Assembly (NCBI RefSeq): GCF_001905885.1
Contig: NZ_LIYH01000001.1
Coordinates: 1,304,169-1,368,168, forward strand
Direction: 5' to 3'
Origin: Streptomyces sp. CB03234
Lineage (GTDB): Bacteria; Actinomycetota; Actinomycetes; Streptomycetales; Streptomycetaceae
DNA length: 64,000 bases
The translations under genes were made by a program, and so were the position numbers. The number at the start of each line of letters is the position of its first letter. The stretch's first letter is position 1. The notes beneath the pieces were generated by a model. That model was not told where the DNA came from, did no database searches, and saw nothing but the letters and a program-made list of their open reading frames with translations. Positions 30,869-40,307 of this stretch are shown here, piece after piece.

Positions 30869-31678
30869 CTAGTACGGCCACTGCGGCGGGTTGGTGCAGA
30901 AGTGGCCGCCCAGGTGGGCGTGGTCCGGGTTGGCGTCGTCCAGTTCGCCCTGTTCGGCGATGAGCTTCTCGGCGTACTGCTCGGAGTCGTCCCGCGGCTC
31001 GTAGCCGAGCGCCCGGGCGGTGGAGAGGTCCCACCACAGGCGGGTGTTGGCGGACGAGCCGTACACCACGGTGTGCTTCACGTCCTCGGCGGTGAGGGCG
31101 GCGTGGAAGAGGCGGGCGCAGTCGCCGGGGCTCATCCAGACCGACAGCATCCGCACGGAGGTGGGCTCCATGAAGCAGGAGCCGATGCGTACGGAGACGG
31201 TCTCGATGCCGTGCAGGTCCCAGTAGAGCTGGGCCAGGTCCTCGCCGAAGCACTTGGACAGCCCGTAGTACGTGTCGGGGCGGCGCGGGGTGTCGACCGG
31301 GATGAGCGGGTCGCCCTCGTGGGGGCGCGGCGTGAAGCCGACCGCGTGGTTGCTGGACGCGAACAGCATCCGGCGCACGCCTTGCTCGCGGGCCGCCTCG
31401 TACAGGTTGTACGTGCCTTCGATGTTGGCGCGCAGGATCTTCTCGAAGGGGGCTTCCAGGGAGATGCCCGCCAGGTGGATGATCGCGTCGACGCCCCGTA
31501 CGGCCTCGCGCAGCGCCTCCTTGTCGGCGAGGTCGGCGGTGATCGCGTCCGGTTCGCCCTCGATGGGGGTGGCGTCGAAGAGGCGCAGCTCGTATCCGTA
31601 CGCGGGCAGCAGCCCCCGCATCAGGGTGCCGAGGCCGCCGGCGGCTCCGGTGAGCAGGACCGTACGGGGAGCGGGCAT
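30869..31678 (-). CDS. udh: Uronate dehydrogenase
   Basis: NAD-dependent extended-SDR enzyme (269 residues) that oxidises galacturonate or glucuronate to the aldarolactone. It matches Agrobacterium-type Udh in length and landmarks: TGAAGGLG (10-17), HLAGIS (68-73), NLYEAAREQGVRRMLFASSNH (split across 91-111), catalytic Y138-x3-K142 in YYGLSK, RIGSCFMEP, and SANTRLWWDLS. AGGAG precedes ATG 31678; an upstream in-frame ATG exists. It is divergent from kdgD, whose enzyme acts two steps later in the same oxidative route, so the pair points to galacturonate use from pectin. Confidence 0.9.
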   Translation of the reverse strand: MPAPRTVLLTGAAGGLGTLMRGLLPAYGYELRLFDATPIEGEPDAITADLADKEALREAVRGVDAIIHLAGISLEAPFEKILRANIEGTYNLYEAAREQGVRRMLFASSNHAVGFTPRPHEGDPLIPVDTPRRPDTYYGLSKCFGEDLAQLYWDLHGIETVSVRIGSCFMEPTSVRMLSVWMSPGDCARLFHAALTAEDVKHTVVYGSSANTRLWWDLSTARALGYEPRDDSEQYAEKLIAEQGELDDANPDHAHLGGHFCTNPPQWPY

Positions 31679-31833
31679 GGGCGGATCTCCTTGCTGGGGC
31701 TCATGTACATAGGTCGCATTCACATGCGTGGACACGCTAGAGAGGGACTCCGAACACCGTCAAGTGTGGTGGCGGGCGGTCGACTCTGCCTGTGAATTGC
31801 GGTTTTCTGCCAACTTTTCGGCAGGCCTCCGCC

Positions 31834-31863
31834 TTGACCGGCCCAAGGGGGCCGGTCTAGCGT
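31834..31863 (+). promoter_or_regulatory. kdgD promoter with operator between -35 and -10
   Basis: TTGACC (31834-31839) and TAGCGT (31858-31863), 18 bases apart, make a good promoter. A perfect inverted repeat with 9-bp arms (31836-31844 and 31849-31857, core GGCCC/GGGCC) occupies the space between the two boxes, an ideal repressor site. The same dyad could also serve the divergent udh promoter. Confidence 0.6.
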
Positions 31864-31927
31864 GGTCGTGTTCATGGATGTGGATACCGATCATAGTTGT
31901 GTACGACGTCTTGCCCAGGGAGCGCCC

Positions 31928-32857
31928 GTGACCCCAGCCCCGCTCGCCGGCCGACTCGACGGCCTGCTCTTCTTCCCCGTCACCGCCTACGGACCCGACG
32001 GCGCGCTCGCCCTGGACGCGTTCCGCGCGCACGTGCGCGCCGGGGTCGAGGCCGGTGCCGGCGCGGTGTTCGCCTGCTGCGGCACGGGGGAGTTCCACGC
32101 CCTCACGCCCGAGGAGTTCCACGCCTGCGTGGCGGCCGCCGTCGAGGAGACCGCCGGGCGGGTGCCGGTCGTGGCCGGCGCCGGGTACGGCACGGCGCTC
32201 GCGATCCAGTACGCGAAGCTCGCCGAGGAGGCGGGCGCCGACGGGCTGCTCGCCATGCCGCCCTACCTCGTCGTCGCCGACCAGGAGGGGCTGCTGCGCC
32301 ACTACACCGCCCTGGCCGGGGCCACCGGGCTCGACGTCATCGTCTACCAGCGGGACAACGCGATCCTCACACCGGAGACGGTCGTCGAACTCGCCCGTGT
32401 CGACGGCGTCATCGGCCTCAAGGACGGCCACGGCGACCTGGACCTGATGCAGCGCGTCGTCAGCGCCGTACGCTCCGAAGGGCTGGACCTGCTGTACTTC
32501 AACGGCCTGCCCACCGCCGAACTCACCGGCCTCGCCTACCGGGGCATCGGCGTCTCGCTCTACTCCTCCGCCGTCTTCTGCTTCGCGCCCGACATCGCCC
32601 TCGCCTTCCACCGCGCGCTGAACAGCGGCGACGACGCGACCGCGAACCGGCTCATCGACGGCTTCTACCGGCCGCTGGTCGAACTGCGCGCCCAGGGCCG
32701 GGGATACGCCGTCTCGCTGGTCAAGGCGGCCGTCCGGATGGGCGGCCTGGACGTCGGCGAGGTCCGCCCGCCGCTCAGCGAACCGGCGCCCGCCCACATC
32801 AAGGAACTCGCCGGGATCGTCGAGCGAGGCCGCGCCCTGCTGGGGGACCAGCGGTGA
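31928..32857 (+). CDS. kdgD: 5-dehydro-4-deoxyglucarate dehydratase
   Basis: DapA-superfamily enzyme (309 residues) converting 5-dehydro-4-deoxyglucarate to 2,5-dioxopentanoate, with loss of CO2 and water, on the way to 2-oxoglutarate. KdgD hallmarks are LFFPVTAYGPDG, the CGTGEFHALT loop (51-60), Y140 in VIVYQRDNA, and Schiff-base K165 in IGLKDGHGD. The start is GTG 31928 with AGGGAG upstream. It is coupled by a GTGA overlap to the next gene. Family assignment is strong. Confidence 0.92.
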   Translation: MTPAPLAGRLDGLLFFPVTAYGPDGALALDAFRAHVRAGVEAGAGAVFACCGTGEFHALTPEEFHACVAAAVEETAGRVPVVAGAGYGTALAIQYAKLAEEAGADGLLAMPPYLVVADQEGLLRHYTALAGATGLDVIVYQRDNAILTPETVVELARVDGVIGLKDGHGDLDLMQRVVSAVRSEGLDLLYFNGLPTAELTGLAYRGIGVSLYSSAVFCFAPDIALAFHRALNSGDDATANRLIDGFYRPLVELRAQGRGYAVSLVKAAVRMGGLDVGEVRPPLSEPAPAHIKELAGIVERGRALLGDQR

Positions 32858-34032
32858 GGACCTCCGCCTTCGTCTACCCCTGGGACGTCATCGGCGACCC
32901 GGACGCCGCCGCGCGGATCGCGGACCTCGGCGTCGAGCAGGTCACCCTCGCCTCCGCGTACCACTCCACCCGCGCCCTGACCCCGCGTCACCCGGCCCAC
33001 CGCCTCGTCACCGCCGAGTACGCCGCCGTCCTCTACCCGCCGGACCGCTCCCGCTGGGCCGGGCGGGACCTGGCGCCGTACGAGGCGGGGGACTGGGCAC
33101 CCGGCGACGCGTACGGGGCGGCCGCCCTGGCGCTGGAGGCCGCCGGGCTGGACGTCCACAGCTGGGTCGTCCTCGCGCACAGCTCCCGCCTCGGCGCCGA
33201 GCACCCCGGCACCTCGGTGGTCAACGCCTACGGCGACCGCTACCCGTGGGCGCCCTGCGTCGCCCGCCCCGAGGTGCGGGCCTATCTGGTGGACCTGGCC
33301 GCCGAGGCGGCGGTACGCCCCGGGGCGCGCGGCACCGAACTGGAGTCGTGCGGCTGGTACGGGATGGCCCACCTGCACGCCCACGACAAGATCGCGGGCG
33401 TCGTCCTCGGGGACGCCGCGCAGTACCTGATGTCCCTGTGCTTCTGCGCCGCGTGCCGCGAAGGGTACGCGGGGCAGGGCGCCGACCCGGACGAGCTGGC
33501 CGCGTGCGTGCGCCGCGCCCTGGAGCCGGTGTGGAGCGCGGGCGGCTCGGCCGACGCGGGGTGGCCCGCCGTGGAGAAGCTGCTGGGTGCCGGCCTCGCC
33601 GCGGCCACCCTCGCGTGGCGCGCCCACGCCGCCCGGGCCCTCCAGGAGGCCGCCGTCGCGGCGGTACGGGCGGCCGCCCACCCGGCGTTCCGGATCCTGC
33701 TGCACGCCGACCCCGCCCCGTACCGCACGGGCGCCAACCCCGGGGTGGACCCGGCGCACATCCTGTCCGTCGCGGACGGCGTCGTCCTGCCCTGCACGGG
33801 CGGCGGCGCGGACACGGTGCTGCCCCCGTTCGCCGCCCACGCGCGCGTGGACACCGTCCTGGCGGCCAACCTCACGGTGGTGACCGGCATGGGAGGGTCC
33901 CCGTCCACCCTCGCCGCCGACGCCGCCCACGCCCGGGAACTGGGCGCCACCGAACTGCGCCTGTACCACGCGGGCCTCGCCTCCGACCAGGACCTGGCGA
34001 CGGTCAGGGAGGCGCTGCTCGCCCTGCGGTGA
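32854..34032 (+). CDS. Uncharacterised protein coupled to kdgD, possible TIM-barrel hydrolase
   Basis: A 392-residue cytoplasmic protein that I cannot assign to a named family. It begins FVYPWDVIGDPDAAARIADLGVEQVTL, looking like the first beta-alpha unit of a TIM barrel. Conserved-looking motifs are ESCGWYGM (164-171), HLHAHDK (173-179) and a cysteine cluster LCFCAAC (195-201). The C-terminus has repeated beta-alpha units (VLAANLTVVTGMG, ATELRLYHAGLA). CFCxxC after a barrel strand recalls predicted glycoside-hydrolase-like proteins, but this is a weak resemblance. Its GTG overlaps the kdgD stop, so it should work with uronate catabolism. Confidence 0.75.
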   Translation: MRTSAFVYPWDVIGDPDAAARIADLGVEQVTLASAYHSTRALTPRHPAHRLVTAEYAAVLYPPDRSRWAGRDLAPYEAGDWAPGDAYGAAALALEAAGLDVHSWVVLAHSSRLGAEHPGTSVVNAYGDRYPWAPCVARPEVRAYLVDLAAEAAVRPGARGTELESCGWYGMAHLHAHDKIAGVVLGDAAQYLMSLCFCAACREGYAGQGADPDELAACVRRALEPVWSAGGSADAGWPAVEKLLGAGLAAATLAWRAHAARALQEAAVAAVRAAAHPAFRILLHADPAPYRTGANPGVDPAHILSVADGVVLPCTGGGADTVLPPFAAHARVDTVLAANLTVVTGMGGSPSTLAADAAHARELGATELRLYHAGLASDQDLATVREALLALR

Positions 34033-34071: not shown

Positions 34072-34557
34072 TCAGACGGCGACGACGTGCACATCCGCCG
34101 GGTTCAGCACCGCCAGGTAGGCGGCCATGTCGTCCGGGTCGCTGGTGAAGACCACCGCGCTGCCGTGCTTGGCGGCGGCCAGCGCCACCCAGGCGTCCAC
34201 GGCGTCCGGCCGCTTCTTGGGCGGCAGGGCCGCTTCACCCAGTGCGGTGCCCACCCGCCGCCAGTCCATGAGGTCGGGGCCGGAACTGCAGGCGATGCAC
34301 TCCGGCAGCCCCGCTCTCGTTTCCCGCATCGCTGGTTCCGAGTTCCTCGCCTGCGGTACCGAGCAGTCCTTGAGGATGCCGGCCAGCGCGTGCACCAGGG
34401 CCGGCTGGGGGCGCCACACCTGCGCCAGGACCGGCCCCAGCACCAAGGCGCGATGCGGTGTCGCCTTCAGGCCCTCGTGCAGCCGGACCGCCTTGGTCTT
34501 CCGATCGGCGAGCGCGATCAGCATCCCCGTGTCGTACACCGGGACTCTCGCGCTCAC
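34072..34557 (-). CDS. PIN-domain protein, probable VapC-like toxin
   Basis: A 161-residue PIN-fold protein. Acidic residues fit D9 (VYDTGMLIALAD), D118/D121 (PDAVDAW) and D140 (FTSDPDDM). The position usually held by a conserved Glu in helix 2-3 reads GPVLAQVWR, with Gln. A 30-residue insert lengthens it beyond the common 130. By family it would be an RNase, held inactive by the upstream antitoxin, with which it overlaps by four bases (GTGA). It is convergent with the uncharacterised kdgD-coupled gene. Confidence 0.82.
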   Translation of the reverse strand: MSARVPVYDTGMLIALADRKTKAVRLHEGLKATPHRALVLGPVLAQVWRPQPALVHALAGILKDCSVPQARNSEPAMRETRAGLPECIACSSGPDLMDWRRVGTALGEAALPPKKRPDAVDAWVALAAAKHGSAVVFTSDPDDMAAYLAVLNPADVHVVAV

Positions 34558-34883
34558 GCGGCGTGCCCAGGGCGGGCCCCGTCCTGATGGGCTCCGTAGA
34601 CCAGGTCGAGCGCGGTTTCCACTTCCCGCTGCTCACTGTCAGTGAGCTCCCCGGCCGCGACCTCCCGCCCTCCCGGAAGCGCCGCCGCCTCCGCCTCCGC
34701 CGCCGCGATGAGCGAGTCCACCCCGGCGAACTGTTCCTCTATGGCTTCGCTTTCCGCCATCTGCCGCGTCGCGGCATGCACCAGGTACGCCGAGACGTCC
34801 ATGCCCGCGCGCTCGGCGTGCCGCTTGATGCGTACCGCCTGCTCCTGCTCGAGGCTGATGCTGATCCTGGTCTTTGCCACCAC
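34554..34883 (-). CDS. Antitoxin-like protein with ribbon-helix-helix N-terminus
   Basis: A 109-residue protein: residues 4-40 (KTRISISLEQEQAVRIKRHA) fit a ribbon-helix-helix DNA-binding fold, and the acidic C-terminus (about 45-109) would wrap the toxin. Two adjacent GTG codons (34883, 34880) can start it. TACGCT directly upstream suggests a leaderless mRNA from the second. A GCGTAT-N8-ATACGC dyad just upstream is a likely autoregulatory operator. An open frame extends 27 codons further upstream but runs through that operator. Confidence 0.8.
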   Translation of the reverse strand: MVAKTRISISLEQEQAVRIKRHAERAGMDVSAYLVHAATRQMAESEAIEEQFAGVDSLIAAAEAEAAALPGGREVAAGELTDSEQREVETALDLVYGAHQDGARPGHAA

Positions 34884-34887
34884 CCCA

Positions 34888-34907
34888 GCGTATGACGCGT
34901 AATACGC
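34888..34907. promoter_or_regulatory. Probable operator of the toxin-antitoxin pair
   Basis: Inverted repeat GCGTAT (34888-34893) and ATACGC (34902-34907) with an eight-base spacer, over the -10 region of the antitoxin promoter. This spacing suits two ribbon-helix-helix dimers. Confidence 0.6.
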
Positions 34908-34969
34908 CTGGTCAAACGAGCCTTCGCTGGTCGGGGCCGTCGGAGTCCCCACGAGTTTTGTCATAAGCG

Positions 34970-35062: not shown

Positions 35063-35716
35063 ATGGCCTTCGCCGCCGCCCCCAGTCCCATCCCCTCCCG
35101 CACCCAGTACGTCCTGGAGGCGATCAAGCACGCGATCCTCACCGGGCAACTGCCCCCGGGCAAAGCCCTGGTGGAGACCGAACTGGCCGCGCAGTACGGG
35201 GTGTCCAAGACCCCCGTACGGGAAGCCCTGAAGACCCTCGCCGGGACCGGCCTCGTCGTCATGAGCCAGTACAAGGGCGCCACCGTCCGCACCGTCGACG
35301 CCGCCATGGCGCGCGAGGTCTACGACGTACGCCTGCTCCTCGAGCCCGAGGCGCTGCGCCGCACCATCGGCCGCGGCGCGTCGCTCGACGCCGCCGGCCA
35401 GGCGCTCGCCGACGCCGACGGGGCGGCCGACCAGGCCGAACGCTCCCTCGCCAACCGGGAGTTCCACCGCGCCCTCTACCTGCCCTGCGGCAACCCGCTG
35501 CTCGCCAGGATGCTCGACGAGGTGCGCGACCAGGCCGCGCTCGTGTCCACCGTCGCCTGGAGCGCCCAGCCCTCCTGGCGGCACGAGGCCGAGGAGCACC
35601 GGCAGATCCTGAGCCTGGCGCTGGCCGGGGACGCCGAGGGCGCCGCGCGCGCCCTGCACGACCACATCGCCTCGTTCGTCGCACGCGCCTTCCCCGGCGA
35701 CGACGACGCCCAGTGA
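35063..35716 (+). CDS. GntR-family regulator (FCD/FadR subfamily)
   Basis: A 217-residue regulator: winged helix about 12-76 (HAILTGQLPPGKALVETELA, YGVSKTPVREALKTL) and an all-helical FCD ligand-binding domain about 85-205 with metal-ligand candidates in FHRALY, and EHRQIL and HDHIASF. FCD regulators usually sense sugar acids or other carboxylates. It is followed by a DapA-superfamily enzyme and an IlvD/Edd dehydratase, so it probably responds to an aldonate or its 2-keto-3-deoxy product. A 14-bp tandem duplication spans its stop codon. Confidence 0.88.
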   Translation: MAFAAAPSPIPSRTQYVLEAIKHAILTGQLPPGKALVETELAAQYGVSKTPVREALKTLAGTGLVVMSQYKGATVRTVDAAMAREVYDVRLLLEPEALRRTIGRGASLDAAGQALADADGAADQAERSLANREFHRALYLPCGNPLLARMLDEVRDQAALVSTVAWSAQPSWRHEAEEHRQILSLALAGDAEGAARALHDHIASFVARAFPGDDDAQ

Positions 35717-35733
35717 CCAACGCCCAGTGACCA
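35706..35733. repeat. 14-bp tandem duplication at the end of the gntR gene
   Basis: ACGCCCAGTGACCA occurs twice in direct tandem (35706-35719, 35720-35733). The first copy contains the gntR stop. It looks like a recent slippage duplication. Confidence 0.85.
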
Positions 35734-35750
35734 CGGAAAAGGACAGCCGT

Positions 35751-36653
35751 ATGGACCACGCATCGCTGAGGGCGGCTCTCGCGGACGTCGTCGCGATCCC
35801 CGTGACACCCTTCGGCGCCGACGGCGGCGTCGAACGCGACACCTACCGCGCCGTGCTGCGCCGGATGCTCGACGGCGGCGTACGGGCTGTCACCCCCAAT
35901 GGCAACACCGGCGAGTTCTACGCCCTCACCCCCCAGGAGCGGGTCCTGATGACCGAGTTGACCGTCGAGGAGACCGGCGACCGCGCCGCCGTCCTCGTCG
36001 GCGTCGGACACGACCTGCCGACCGCGACCGCCGCCGCCCGGCACGCCCGCGACCTCGGCGCCGGCATGGTCATGGTCCACCAGCCCGTGCACCCGTACGT
36101 CTCGCGCGACGGCTGGATCGCGTACCACCGCGAGATCGCCGACGCCGTCCCCGAGCTGGGCGTCGTGCCGTACATCCGCAACCCGCTCCTCGACGGCGCC
36201 ACCATCGCCCGGCTCGGCGAGCTGTGCCCCAACGTCATCGGCGTCAAGTACGCCGTGCCCGACGCCGCCCGCTTCGGCGCCGTCGCCCGCGACGCCGGGC
36301 TCGACCGGTTCGTGTGGATCGCCGGCCTCGCCGAGCTGTACGCGCCCGCCTACTGGGCCATGGGCGCCACCGGCTTCACCTCCGGGCTGGTCAACGTCGC
36401 CCCGGCCGTCTCGCTCGCCATGCTGGAGGCGCTGCGCGCCGGGGACCAGCAGGCCGCCGCGAAGGTGTGGGAGCAGATCCGCCCCTTCGAGGACCTGCGC
36501 GCCGCCGACCAGTCCGCCGACAACGTCACGGTCGTCAAGGAGGCGCTGGACGCCCTCGGCCTGTGCCGCCGCGACGTGCGCCCGCCGAGCCGCCTGCTCC
36601 CCGAGGCGCGCCGCGCCGAGATCGCCGCGATGGTCGGGAGCTGGTCCATATGA
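35751..36653 (+). CDS. DapA-superfamily aldolase/dehydratase (KdgD-like)
   Basis: A 300-residue pyruvate-type class I enzyme: TPNGNTGEFYALT (48-60), Y141 in VVPYIRN and Schiff-base K166 in IGVKYAVPD. It resembles KdgD more than DapA (GNTGEFYALT against CGTGEFHALT of the kdgD product here) but is clearly diverged. Coupling (ATGA) to an IlvD/Edd dehydratase suggests that it processes the 2-keto-3-deoxy sugar acid made by that enzyme, as an aldolase or dehydratase. AAAGGA precedes the ATG. Confidence 0.85.
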   Translation: MDHASLRAALADVVAIPVTPFGADGGVERDTYRAVLRRMLDGGVRAVTPNGNTGEFYALTPQERVLMTELTVEETGDRAAVLVGVGHDLPTATAAARHARDLGAGMVMVHQPVHPYVSRDGWIAYHREIADAVPELGVVPYIRNPLLDGATIARLGELCPNVIGVKYAVPDAARFGAVARDAGLDRFVWIAGLAELYAPAYWAMGATGFTSGLVNVAPAVSLAMLEALRAGDQQAAAKVWEQIRPFEDLRAADQSADNVTVVKEALDALGLCRRDVRPPSRLLPEARRAEIAAMVGSWSI

Positions 36654-38365
36654 AGCCGGAAGAGCTCCGCAGCCACCAGTGGTACGGGACCGACGGCCTG
36701 CGCTCGTTCAGCCACCGCGCCCGCACCCGCCAGCTCGGCTACCTCCCCGAGGAGCACCTGGGCAAGCCGGTCATCGCGATCCTCAACACCTGGTCCGACA
36801 TCAACCCCTGTCACGTCCACCTGCGTGACCGGGCGCAGGCCGTGAAGCGGGGGGTGTGGCAGGCCGGGGGCTTCCCGCTGGAGTTCCCGGTCGCCACGCT
36901 CTCGGAGACGTTCCAGAAGCCGACGCCGATGCTCTACCGCAATCTCCTGGCGATGGAGACGGAGGAGTTGCTGCGCTCGTACCCGGTCGACGGGGCGGTG
37001 CTGATGGGCGGCTGCGACAAGTCGACACCGGCGCTGCTGATGGGCGCGGCCTCCGCCGACCTGCCCGCCGTCTTCGTACCGGCCGGGCCGATGTTGCCGG
37101 GCCACTGGCGCGGTGAGGTCCTCGGCTCCGGCACGGACATGTGGAAGTACTGGGACGACAAGCGCGCCGGGCTCATCGGCGACTGCGAGATGGCCGAGCT
37201 GGAGAACGGACTCGCCCGCTCGCCCGGCCACTGCATGACCATGGGCACCGCCTCCACGCTGACGGCCGCCGCCGAGGCGCTGGGCGTCACCATGCCGGGC
37301 GCCTCCTCGGTCCCGGCCGTCGACTCCGGGCACGACCGGATGGCCGCCGCCTCCGGGATGCGGATCGTCGAGCTCGTACGCCAGGACCTGAGACTGTCCC
37401 GGATCCTGACGAGGGAGGCGTACGAGGACGCCGTGACGACCGTCCTCGGGCTGGGCGGGTCGACCAACGCCGTGATCCACCTGATCGCCATGGCGGGCCG
37501 CTCCGGAGTCGCGCTCACGCTCGACGACTTCGACCGGATCGCCCGGACCGTGCCGGTCCTCGCGAACCTCCGCCCGGGCGGGCGGTACCTGATGGAGGAC
37601 TTCCACTTCGCCGGCGGACTGCCCGGGTTCCTCTCCCGCATCACCGACCTGCTGCACCTGGACCGGCCGACCGTCGCCCACGCCACCCTGCGCGAACAGC
37701 TCGACGGCGCGCTGGTGCACAACGACGACGTGATCCGGCCGCGCGACCGGGCGCTCGCCGACGAGGGCGGTGTCGCGGTCCTGCGCGGCAACCTCTGCCC
37801 CGACGGCGCCGTCATCAAGCACATCGCCGCCGAGCCGCACCTGCTCAAGCACACCGGGCCCGCCGTCGTCTTCGACGACTACCGGACCATGCAGCGCACC
37901 ATCAACGACCCGGCCCTCGGCATCACCGCCGACCATGTGCTGGTGCTGCGCAACGCCGGGCCCAAGGGCGGCCCCGGGATGCCGGAGTACGGGATGCTCC
38001 CGATCCCCGACCACCTGCTCAAGCAGGGCGTCCGGGACATGGTGCGGATCTCCGACGCCCGGATGAGCGGCACCAGTTACGGCACGTGCGTGCTGCACGT
38101 CGCGCCCGAGTCGTACGTCGGCGGGCCCCTGGCCCTCGTCCGCACCGGCGACCTCATCACCCTCGACGTCGAGGCGCGCACGCTCCACCTGGACGTGGGC
38201 GACGAGGAGCTTCAGCGGCGCAGGGCGGAGTGGACCCCGCCGCCCGCCCGGTACGGGCGCGGCTACGGCGCCCTCTACAGCGAGCACATCACCCAGGCCG
38301 ACACCGGCTGCGACTTCGCGTTCCTCGCCAGGGCCGGCGAGGTCCCGGACCCCTACGCGGGCTGA
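36650..38365 (+). CDS. IlvD/Edd-family sugar-acid dehydratase
   Basis: A 571-residue Fe-S dehydratase. The three cluster cysteines are C54 (INPCHVH), C122 (GGCDKSTPA) and C195 (SPGHCMTMG). The overall pattern, including HQWYGTDGLRSFSHRARTRQLG at the N-terminus (residues 9-30), is that of aldonate dehydratases (arabinonate, xylonate, galactonate type), not of the amino-acid enzyme IlvD. It forms 2-keto-3-deoxy acids, presumably used by the DapA-superfamily enzyme with which it overlaps. The exact substrate cannot be read; arabinonate is plausible because GH43 is nearby. Confidence 0.88.
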   Translation: MKPEELRSHQWYGTDGLRSFSHRARTRQLGYLPEEHLGKPVIAILNTWSDINPCHVHLRDRAQAVKRGVWQAGGFPLEFPVATLSETFQKPTPMLYRNLLAMETEELLRSYPVDGAVLMGGCDKSTPALLMGAASADLPAVFVPAGPMLPGHWRGEVLGSGTDMWKYWDDKRAGLIGDCEMAELENGLARSPGHCMTMGTASTLTAAAEALGVTMPGASSVPAVDSGHDRMAAASGMRIVELVRQDLRLSRILTREAYEDAVTTVLGLGGSTNAVIHLIAMAGRSGVALTLDDFDRIARTVPVLANLRPGGRYLMEDFHFAGGLPGFLSRITDLLHLDRPTVAHATLREQLDGALVHNDDVIRPRDRALADEGGVAVLRGNLCPDGAVIKHIAAEPHLLKHTGPAVVFDDYRTMQRTINDPALGITADHVLVLRNAGPKGGPGMPEYGMLPIPDHLLKQGVRDMVRISDARMSGTSYGTCVLHVAPESYVGGPLALVRTGDLITLDVEARTLHLDVGDEELQRRRAEWTPPPARYGRGYGALYSEHITQADTGCDFAFLARAGEVPDPYAG

Positions 38366-38392
38366 ACCGCTTCCTCTCCTGACCGGAGTCGC

Positions 38393-38414
38393 CGTGTTCG
38401 GCATACCGAACACG
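38393..38414. promoter_or_regulatory. Strong palindromic operator upstream of the pectin transport/degradation operon
   Basis: Perfect inverted repeat with 9-bp arms CGTGTTCGG and CCGAACACG around CATA, 46 bases before the first permease gene. The TTCGG-N4-CCGAA core resembles sites of IclR- or GntR-type regulators of sugar-acid genes. Just downstream lies AAGCGCTT (38422-38429), a LacI-type core. Confidence 0.7.
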
Positions 38415-38460
38415 ATCCGGTAAGCGCTTCACCCCACGCAATGACGAACGGAGACATGTC

Positions 38461-39399
38461 ATGGCCCAAGCCGCAGCCGTGGCGAAACACCCCCGGGCCG
38501 GCCGGCGCCGCACGGGGACCGGAGCCGAACCACGCCGCCTGCCGTACCTGCTGATCGCGCCCGCCGGGCTGCTGATGCTGGGCTTCATCGCCTACCCGGT
38601 ACTGAGCGTCTTCTACTACAGCCTGCAGCACTACAACGTCACCAAGCCGTGGAAGAACGGCTACGCGGGCCTGGACAACTTCACCCGCGTCTTCACCGAG
38701 GACCCCCTCTTCTGGTCCACGCTCGGCTTCAGCGCCAAGTGGGTCATCGTCCAGGTCAGCCTCCAACTCGCCCTCGGGCTCGTACTGGCGCTGCTGGTCA
38801 ACCAGACGTTCGTCGGCCGGGCCGTCGCCCGCGCCCTGGTCTTCTCGCCGTGGGCCGTCTCCGGCGTCCTGACCACCACCATCTGGATGCTGCTCTACAA
38901 CCCCTCCACGGGCGTGAGCCGCTACCTCGCCGACATCGGCATCGGCTCGTACGGCACCTCCGTGCTGTCCGACACGGGCACCGTCTTCTGGGCGGCGGTC
39001 GTCGCCGAACTGTGGCGAGGAGTCCCCTTCTTCGCCATCCTCATCCTCGCCGACCTCCAGTCCATCCCCAGGGACCTGTACGAGGCGGCGTCGGTGGACG
39101 GGGCGGGCCGGCTGCGGCAGTTCTTCCACATCACGCTGCCCCACCTCAAGGACGCGATCATCCTCTCCACGCTGCTGCGCGGCGTCTGGGAGTTCAACAA
39201 CGTCGACCTGCTCTACACCCTCACGGGCGGTGGCCCCGCCGGAGTCACCACGACGCTGCCCCTGATGATCGCGAACACCGGTATCGAGGGCCACGACTTC
39301 GGTTACGCCTCCGCGCTGACCACCGTCGCGTTCGTGATCCTCCTCTTCTGCTCGATCCTCTATCTGCGCCTGAGCAAGTTCGGAGGCGACCGCACATGA
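38461..39399 (+). CDS. Sugar ABC transporter permease 1 (CUT1)
   Basis: A 312-residue inner-membrane permease with six predicted helices. The EAA loop EAASVDGAGRLRQFFHITLP contacts the ATPase. It is the MalF/UgpA-like partner of the next gene, overlapping it by four bases. The substrate-binding protein of the system is probably the one at 47560, and no ATPase gene is present in the window. Context points to oligogalacturonides or pectin side-chain oligosaccharides. Confidence 0.93.
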   Translation: MAQAAAVAKHPRAGRRRTGTGAEPRRLPYLLIAPAGLLMLGFIAYPVLSVFYYSLQHYNVTKPWKNGYAGLDNFTRVFTEDPLFWSTLGFSAKWVIVQVSLQLALGLVLALLVNQTFVGRAVARALVFSPWAVSGVLTTTIWMLLYNPSTGVSRYLADIGIGSYGTSVLSDTGTVFWAAVVAELWRGVPFFAILILADLQSIPRDLYEAASVDGAGRLRQFFHITLPHLKDAIILSTLLRGVWEFNNVDLLYTLTGGGPAGVTTTLPLMIANTGIEGHDFGYASALTTVAFVILLFCSILYLRLSKFGGDRT

Positions 39400-40307
39400 C
39401 CGCCGCACTCGCGGAAAAGGGCACCCACGCGCGCGTGCCCACGCCCCAGCCGCCGCTGCCCCCGTCCGGGTCGCGCACACCGAAGCGGGAGCGCGCCTTC
39501 GACGACGTACCGCGCTGGCAGATCTACGTCCCCCTCGGGCTGTACTTGCTGTTCACGCTCGTCCCGTTCTACTGGATGCTGCTGTTCGCGCTGCGGCCCG
39601 CCGGGTCCACCTCGCTGGTGCCGTGGCCGCTGACCTTCGAGCACTTCGACAAGGTCTGGAACGAGCGCAGCTTCGGCGTCTTCTTCCAGAACAGCATGCT
39701 CGTCGGCGTCGCCACGCTGGTGACGACCACCCTCATCGCCCTGACCGGCGGGTACGCCCTGGCCCGGTTCAACTTCCGGATCAAGAACGGCTTCATGCTG
39801 GCGCTGCTGTGCTCCCAGTTCATCCCGGGCGCGCTGATGCTGGTCCCGCTGTTCGAGATCTTCCGCGAGCTTCGGATGATCAACTCGCTGGGCAGCGTCA
39901 TCATCGCCGAGACGGTCTTCCAGCTGCCCCTGTCGATCATCCTGATCAGCGGGTTCATCAAGAACGTGCCGGTCTCCCTGGAGGAGGCCGCCTGGGTGGA
40001 CGGCTGCTCCCGCTTCCGCGCCTTCTGCGCGGTCGTCCTGCCGCTGCTGCGGCCCGGGCTGATCGCGGTCGGCTCCTTCGCCTTCGTCCACAGCTGGAAC
40101 CACTTCCTGTTCGCCCTGATGTTCCTCAGCCGGCAGGACAGGCAGACCATCCCCGTCGGCCTCAACACCCTCATCGGCTCGGACAGCGTCGACCTGGGCG
40201 CGCTGGCGGCGGGCGGGGTCGTCGCGGCCGTCCCCGTGGTGATCGTCTTCGCGTTCATCCAGAAGTGGCTCATCACCGGCTTCAGCGCCGGGGCGGTGAA
40301 GGGCTGA
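39396..40307 (+). CDS. Sugar ABC transporter permease 2 (CUT1)
   Basis: A 303-residue MalG/UgpE-like permease; six helices, EAA loop EEAAWVDGCSRFRAFCAVVLP. It has a long Pro-rich cytoplasmic N-terminus (about residues 1-45). ATGA overlap with permease 1. A 107-base gap separates it from the pectate lyase gene that follows. Confidence 0.93.
   Translation: MTAALAEKGTHARVPTPQPPLPPSGSRTPKRERAFDDVPRWQIYVPLGLYLLFTLVPFYWMLLFALRPAGSTSLVPWPLTFEHFDKVWNERSFGVFFQNSMLVGVATLVTTTLIALTGGYALARFNFRIKNGFMLALLCSQFIPGALMLVPLFEIFRELRMINSLGSVIIAETVFQLPLSIILISGFIKNVPVSLEEAAWVDGCSRFRAFCAVVLPLLRPGLIAVGSFAFVHSWNHFLFALMFLSRQDRQTIPVGLNTLIGSDSVDLGALAAGGVVAAVPVVIVFAFIQKWLITGFSAGAVKG

Follow-up and report, generated by a model that had tools for sequence, protein, structure and literature searches.

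What does the protein encoded immediately after kdgD do in a Streptomyces locus for uronic acid breakdown? The gene in question, here called X, is an open reading frame (ORF) on the forward strand of a 64,000-nt stretch of DNA from Streptomyces sp. CB03234 (the window), at positions 32854-34032. It overlaps kdgD, coding for 5-dehydro-4-deoxyglucarate dehydratase, and lies close to the divergently oriented udh, coding for uronate dehydrogenase. The original prediction offered two possibilities: that X fills one of the steps of galacturonate oxidation that seemed to be missing, or that it is an intracellular glycosidase. We conclude that X probably frees galacturonic or glucuronic acid from larger sugars inside the cell, because its predicted fold is glycosidase-like and its gene adjoins genes for the catabolism of these two acids. 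In more specific terms, we lean towards an intracellular glycoside hydrolase (GH)-like hydrolase that releases uronic acid for Udh. The computed support consists of the predicted fold, the conservation of residues, the alignment of cysteines with those of GH42 and the tight linkage to udh.

The reading frame stands as first described. It opens with a GTG codon at 32854 and comprises 392 codons, with a stop codon ending at 34032; bases 32854-32857 (GTGA) are common to the start of X and the stop of kdgD. The two motifs noticed at the outset, HLHAHDK (residues 173-179) and CFCAAC (residues 196-201), are both present. No signal peptide for export was apparent on inspection of the sequence by eye.

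Predicted fold and family searches

Structure prediction and fold search had been suggested as a way of finding out whether X is a barrel. The AlphaFold model (27-row alignment; pLDDT 92.8, pTM 0.92) is indeed a (beta/alpha)8 barrel, with strands, assigned to the barrel by hand, at residues 2-7, 29-36, 100-106, 158-164, 280-284, 309-313, 335-341 and 367-371. The best 50 solved matches were listed for each model, those within 1 Z of each other being treated as tied and unlisted fold families not being excluded thereby; the 50 listed for X are glycoside hydrolases or their relatives. The best is Cwp19 (5oq2; Z 24.9, rmsd 3.1, 289 aligned residues, 14% identity), followed by 6tvk (Z 24.7), PgaB (Z 21.3-24.1), the GH42 structures 5xb7 (Z 22.6) and 1kwg (Z 21.5), and beta-amylases (Z about 20). 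The model of a homolog that is 23-24% identical to X (L150; pLDDT 90.2) also has Cwp19 as its best match (Z 27.6, rmsd 3.2, 297 aligned), then PgaB, 6tvk and GH42. The two models are not independent, since their alignments share rows.

The functional region of Cwp19 (5oq2/5oq3) thus heads both lists, but it is distant from X in sequence and, being presumably part of a cell-wall protein, differs from X, which has no apparent export signal. The C-terminal glycoside hydrolase domain of PgaB and the alpha-L-fucosidase 6tvk (which we take to be GH153 and GH151, respectively) share the TIM barrel with Z 21.3 to 25.2, but only 12 to 16% identity. No open-licence paper was found on Cwp19 or on haloarchaeal NamZ.

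A clear match to a family of unrelated function was looked for, as the original prediction had advised: no family matched in Pfam or NCBIfam, and nothing significant was found in the PDB, where the sequence of X matched one chain only (E 0.5). A profile of X gave nine PDB matches (E 0.0095 to 6.7), the fold-consistent one being again Cwp19 (a weak match, E 0.059). X did not match the GH42 family PF02449, nor the dehydratase families PF20629 and PF13378, nor PF08450 (SGL/SMP-30 lactonases); the last presumably have a beta-propeller fold, and X is a predicted TIM barrel. Weak Pfam matches to putative glycosyl hydrolases occur in some of the 16 family members scanned, namely GHL10 in 4 (best E 6.4e-5), GHL6 in 2 (0.28) and DUF4015 in 1 (0.0024), besides DUF4838 in 1 (0.31) and the unrelated TetR_C_30 (0.046) and Sigma54_DBD (0.33); X of the window itself matches no Pfam family and so none of GHL10, GHL6 and DUF4015. 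The GHL10 (PF02638) score of one member, L146, is 14.3 bits and falls below the gathering cut-off of 27.9. The family is therefore most likely undescribed, close to GHL10 and GH42, lying outside GH42 as tested here and scoring, where a score is available, too low for the GHL10 cut-off.

Cysteine cluster and comparison with GH42

Sixteen Streptomyces GH42 loci were sampled, one of which (L162) yielded no ORF and one of which (L160) was excluded from the profile, leaving 14 ORFs. Comparison of the X family with this profile by hhalign gave a probability of 87.7 and a score of 54.7 over X residues 87-206, rising to 91.6 and 59.2 with 32 X rows. Controls run with the first X profile stayed at or below 1.2 in probability and 24.8 in score; they comprised eight further families from around X (KdgD and DHDPS2 being TIM barrels), the GH42 profile reversed once and the same profile column-shuffled 20 times. 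In the alignment C135 falls on the first zinc cysteine of GH42 and C196, C198 and C201 fall on its C-x-C-x-x-C cluster. All four cysteines are invariant in 32 out of 32 relatives of X; the C-x-C-x-x-C cluster itself occurs in 10 of 15 Streptomyces GH42 ORFs. The positions of the GH42 zinc ligands and catalytic glutamates were taken from the available text of the Gal42 paper (PMC8573354), according to which the cysteine cluster is not general in GH42. That text cites the zinc of one GH42 enzyme as being outside the catalytic cycle, yet itself finds that zinc raises activity.

The CFCAAC cluster had been proposed as a possible metal site. The four cysteines are predicted to form a zinc site that is probably structural, because the profile comparison places them on the zinc cysteines of GH42. 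A catalytic metal site at CFCAAC was considered and rejected, as the cluster matches cysteines whose zinc is cited as outside the catalytic cycle.

The likeness to GH42 extends to the barrel (Z 19.2 to 22.6 among the matches listed) and to the equal order of the four aligned cysteines. X differs in its length (392 residues against about 640-690), in a long stretch with HxxxH after strand 4, and in having neither the NEY motif nor the nucleophile glutamate of strand 7. In GH42 the acid/base glutamate (NEY motif) lies on strand 4 and the nucleophile on strand 7, and the known activities of the family are those of beta-galactosidase and alpha-L-arabinopyranosidase.

Candidate active site

Conservation was counted over 32 relatives ranging from bacteria to archaea. 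Y36, H37, W104, H109, E164, H177 and Y371 are invariant, and D11 and H173 vary once each (31/32). The model places these residues at, or close to, the C-terminal ends of strands 1, 2, 3, 4 and 8 and after strand 4, as would be expected of an active site (Table 1).

E164 ends strand 4 without an NEY motif, and hhalign does not pair it with the acid/base glutamate of GH42; the order of strands in the model nevertheless suggests that the two may correspond. The retaining mechanism of GH42 is unlikely in X, because residues 335-355 (strand 7 and beyond) include neither Asp nor Glu, and the acids that some distant relatives have in this region lack conservation. It may rather be that E164 acts with D11, H109 and H177. 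The available text on the GH156 sialidase describes Asp14 as base and His134 as acid (PMC6811678). This inverting enzyme resembles the X model with a Foldseek E of 2.7e-6, and its Asp14/His134 pair recalls D11/H109 of X, a likeness that might serve as a lead.

Table 1. Positions in the window of X, its two uronate neighbours and the residues of X discussed in the text
Feature	Position	Strand	Remarks	Basis
X, GH-like TIM-barrel protein, 392 aa	32854..34032	+		ORF, predicted model, fold search
kdgD, 5-dehydro-4-deoxyglucarate dehydratase	31862..32857	+	overlaps X by 4 bases	Pfam/NCBIfam/PDB matches
udh, uronate dehydrogenase	30869..31735	-	divergent from kdgD-X; most constant X neighbour	PDB match, genome survey
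D11 codon	32884..32886	+	after strand 1; 31/32	model, alignment
Y36-H37 codons	32959..32964	+	end of strand 2; 32/32	model, alignment
H109 codon	33178..33180	+	three residues after strand 3; 32/32	model, alignment
C135 codon	33256..33258	+	first of four invariant Cys, on GH42 zinc Cys	hhalign, 32-row alignment
E164 codon	33343..33345	+	last residue of strand 4; 32/32; candidate acid/base	model, alignment
HLHAHDK	33370..33390	+	after strand 4; H173 31/32, H177 32/32; candidate active-site His	model, alignment
CFCAAC (C196, C198, C201)	33439..33456	+	on GH42 C-x-C-x-x-C zinc cluster	hhalign, 32-row alignment
Y371 codon	33964..33966	+	end of strand 8; 32/32	model, alignment

Linkage to udh and kdgD in Streptomyces

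Among 150 Streptomyces genomes, 114 have a match to X: an ortholog in 111 (some fragmentary) and a distant copy only in 3. Full-length orthologs are about 66-100% identical. The start of udh lies within 3.5 kb of the start of the X ortholog in 108 out of 111 cases, and a kdgD ortholog does so in 103. Across the 150 genomes X and udh occur together in 112, X alone in 2, udh alone in 12 and neither in 24, so that udh is found in 112 of 114 genomes with X against 12 of 36 without (Fisher 8.6e-17, uncorrected for relatedness). A kdgD ortholog without X occurs in only one of the 150 genomes (G063).

The 110 loci numbered L007 (that of the window) to L116, of which L008-L036 hold at most about 4 kb, contain udh in 108 cases and kdgD in 108; L008 and L108 sit too near a contig end. 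The spacing between kdgD and X was measured in 80 loci (L037-L116): it is the same four-base overlap in 54, another overlap in 4, a gap of 0-59 bases in 16 and one of 63-78 bases in 5, and in L114 no kdgD separates udh from X. Beside six X orthologs (in G003, G046, G075, G085, G104 and, as a fragment, G089) and the distant copies of G045 and G073 there is udh but no adjoining kdgD ortholog; after udh, G046 and G104 carry a remoter homolog of kdgD. These counts of adjacency and co-occurrence indicate that the tie of X to udh is no weaker than its tie to kdgD. The coupling to kdgD that had been proposed therefore holds for most Streptomyces copies, with udh an at least equally constant neighbour, and several distant homologs lack both genes as neighbours. 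A carbohydrate substrate-binding protein (SBP) and a DeoR regulator are present within 53 and 54, respectively, of 70 long loci (domain scan).

The X match is broken into pieces in four genomes (G035, G068, G081 and G118), and a stop lies inside it in G056, G104 and the first G068 piece; these split or stop-bearing copies are pseudogenes or assembly errors.

Distant homologs and their neighbourhoods

When 396 genomes of the phylum were searched with a profile, 15 matched, of which six belong to other genera. Searching plasmid records with X returned 150 matches, each at less than 80% coverage and mostly from Rhizobium (112) and haloarchaea; the same records searched with L150 returned 152, of which 146 had at least 80% coverage.

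The neighbours of these copies vary. In L118 the copy directly follows genes for an SBP and two permeases (the permeases identified by their likeness to window genes that were labelled by eye), and L119 has by eye the same arrangement plus a 2-hydroxyacid dehydrogenase. L122 (genome G009; stretch partly N) reads KdgD, glucarate-dehydratase-like, X homolog, aldehyde-dehydrogenase-like, the last identified by eye. ROK, NagA, SIS and sugar transporter genes lie near the L144 copy, a short-chain dehydrogenase/reductase (SDR) gene lies beside that of L146, and in L149 the order is SBP, creatininase-like, X homolog, metallo-lactonase-like and Gfo/Idh. The homolog of Halorussus limi carries the annotation 'putative glycoside hydrolase' (in the other haloarchaeal records that were listed with annotation the label is 'hypothetical protein'); its gene is flanked by a serine hydrolase and DUF1343-NagZ, and AnmK and GH18 lie close by. 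Haloarcula has the order creatininase, SBP, permease, permease, X homolog, enolase and SDR, and RidA too. Copies from Rhizobium and Aureimonas (L174, L178, L179) are accompanied by a sugar importer, an amidohydrolase and either an alanine racemase or an amino-acid deaminase; the two Rhizobium records also have RidA. The common thread is the uptake and breakdown of differing small sugars or conjugates, the rhizobial setting being the least clear, and this favours a glycosidase of changing specificity over an aldarate-specific enzyme.

Some further features of these loci were recorded. A GH48 cellulase with CBM2 (L120, 4901-7894) stands beside a udh-adjoining copy, and a similar ORF was seen by eye in L121. 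The L144-L148 loci partly resemble the rhizobial set (a D-ser_dehydrat domain was scanned in L146, the remainder seen by eye). A haloarchaeal plasmid (L175, 4477-16563) carries a muropeptide-recycling-like set consisting of AnmK, a peptidoglycan recognition protein, DUF1343, NagZ and two GH18, which is unexpected in an archaeon, a cell without peptidoglycan.

Uronate pathway genes

Udh scores 250 bits against solved uronate dehydrogenases in a PDB sequence search. For KdgD the best PDB match is 4ur7, a keto-deoxy-D-galactarate dehydratase, and the NCBIfam model NF002958 is matched with 427.8 bits (cut-off 278); the equivalog TIGR03249 gives 313.5 bits, below its cut-off of 373.95. A characterised Streptomyces Udh, from S. 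viridochromogenes, acts on glucuronate and galacturonate, and in the available text of that paper (PMC4476818) the terms gene cluster, operon, neighbo-, lactonase and hypothetical protein are absent. No title on X was seen among the open-licence matches listed for KdgD/Udh clusters or S. coelicolor galacturonic acid, and no enzyme handing free uronic acid to Udh was found in the open-licence papers searched.

Three families were searched for the steps said to be unrecognisable in the window: PF13378 (enolase type), PF08450 (SGL) and PF20629 (GarD). None of the three has a member in the window; GarD has none in the genome either, and the other two have members only on other contigs (other lactonase and dehydratase families were outside this search). 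Among them are an SGL-family gene and a glucarate-dehydratase-like (GlucD) enolase (L152; TIGR03247 250.6 bits, below the cut-off of 828.7). GlucD orthologs of at least 52% identity occur in 90 of the 114 genomes with X and in 7 of the 36 others. Out of the 24 remaining X genomes, 14 have a match of 41-44% and 10 have none at 1e-60; nine of these ten hold other enolase-superfamily proteins (putative activity), and the tenth, G075, has no kdgD match either. Since such genes lie elsewhere, the steps called missing may be supplied from other parts of the genome. The candidate function of X as galactarate dehydratase of the whole group was rejected on these counts, although single genomes could differ.

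Possible functions of X

Several observations weigh against a hydrolase serving Udh. A shared barrel fold does not establish function, and X of the window lacks any acid in the strand 7 region. Twelve of the 124 udh-bearing genomes have no X, and no sugar importer adjoins udh in the window. G246 is one of the matching genomes outside the genus, and of the 39 genomes in its family 5 have a copy; the rhizobial copies, set among amidohydrolase and amino-acid deaminase or racemase genes, have no obvious glycosidase setting. The G009 operon would suit an aldarate-level step, the udh homolog of that genome being only 49% identical and far away.

This last point belongs to the other proposal, that X opens the galactaro- or glucaro-lactone made by Udh or dehydrates galactarate, Udh, X and KdgD then forming a short pathway. 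The adjacency of X to both genes agrees with it, as do the absence of the three searched families from the window, the failure to find, in any of the 80 named loci, a protein related to the GlucD-like one of this genome, and the X genomes in which a GlucD ortholog is wanting. Against this stand the GlucD-like and SGL-family genes elsewhere in the same genome and the enolase-superfamily members of nearly all X genomes devoid of a GlucD match. Moreover, a GlucD homolog (56%) is already present beside the G009 copy, so that the dehydratase of that operon would be a protein other than the X homolog; the named neighbours in L144 and Halorussus include no recognised aldarate enzyme, and no lactonase or dehydratase appears among the 50 fold neighbours listed per table. 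We regard this proposal as unlikely and not supported. The intracellular glycosidase is the better supported of the two original ideas, given the fold, the GH42-type cysteines and the sugar-import or amino-sugar neighbourhoods of some homologs.

Two further explanations start from the same fold. A glycosidase-derived barrel might perform other carbohydrate chemistry, as an epimerase, mutarotase or deacylase, or in cleaving oxidised glycosides together with neighbouring oxidoreductases. SDR or Gfo/Idh dehydrogenases, RidA and creatininase-like genes do recur by distant homologs (some by eye), and X combines three conserved histidines (H109, H173, H177) with the lack of a strand-7 acid, presumably an unusual combination for clan-A enzymes. 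No direct evidence points to any such activity, however, and the nearest folds belong, judging by their titles, to enzymes acting on glycosidic bonds; this explanation seems to us rather improbable. Finally, X could be a non-catalytic sugar-binding or regulatory protein of glycosidase descent, the canonical nucleophile being absent and one listed fold match, 7upv, being a beta-amylase-like domain described as noncatalytic. The full conservation of Y36, H37, H109, E164, H177 and Y371 from bacteria to archaea argues against it, and we give it very little credence.

Returning to the favoured hydrolase, X would be a cytosolic enzyme with a GH-like (beta/alpha)8 barrel steadied by a GH42-type four-cysteine zinc site. 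We infer that the Streptomyces protein would cleave, by a mechanism other than the retaining one of GH42, the glycosidic bond of an imported uronide (an oligo- or hetero-glycoside with galacturonic or glucuronic acid). The uronic acid set free would be oxidised by Udh, and the aldarate would pass through a dehydratase and then KdgD towards 2-oxoglutarate semialdehyde. A wider proposal, which we offer tentatively and hold to be possible, is that X founds a new GH family with members in actinobacteria, rhizobia and haloarchaea. These would share a clan-A-like barrel steadied by zinc, from which the retaining nucleophile has been lost, and an unusual Glu/His/Asp centre (E164, H177, H109, D11); the Streptomyces proteins would be specialised on uronides, the others on glycosides of amino sugars or of other kinds.

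Other genes of the window

Among the window genes, those called GntR, ABC permease, pectate lyase, TerD, PIN and RHH were named by eye, and the IlvD-type and Gfo/Idh-type ones by scanning. Two small PIN/antitoxin-like genes lie between X and the GntR gene (34072-34964, minus strand). Among the 110 X loci (29 of the others hold at most 4 kb) this pair was matched only in the window's own, so it is perhaps a recent insertion. The unit at 35063-40307 (plus strand) comprises GntR, a second DHDPS-family enzyme, an IlvD-type protein and two ABC permeases; of these, GntR was found again in 70, DHDPS in 65 and IlvD in 61 of the 110 loci. The IlvD-type gene (36650-38365) scores 936.3 bits against the L-arabinonate dehydratase cut-off of 882 and probably belongs to a different sugar pathway. 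A pectate-lyase-like gene and a Gfo/Idh gene follow downstream.

Significance

Streptomyces are major degraders of plant litter. X represents an unnamed family that is present in about three quarters of the sampled Streptomyces genomes and has homologs in archaea. The family would add an uncharacterised class of sugar-processing enzymes, with exact residues and substrates to test.

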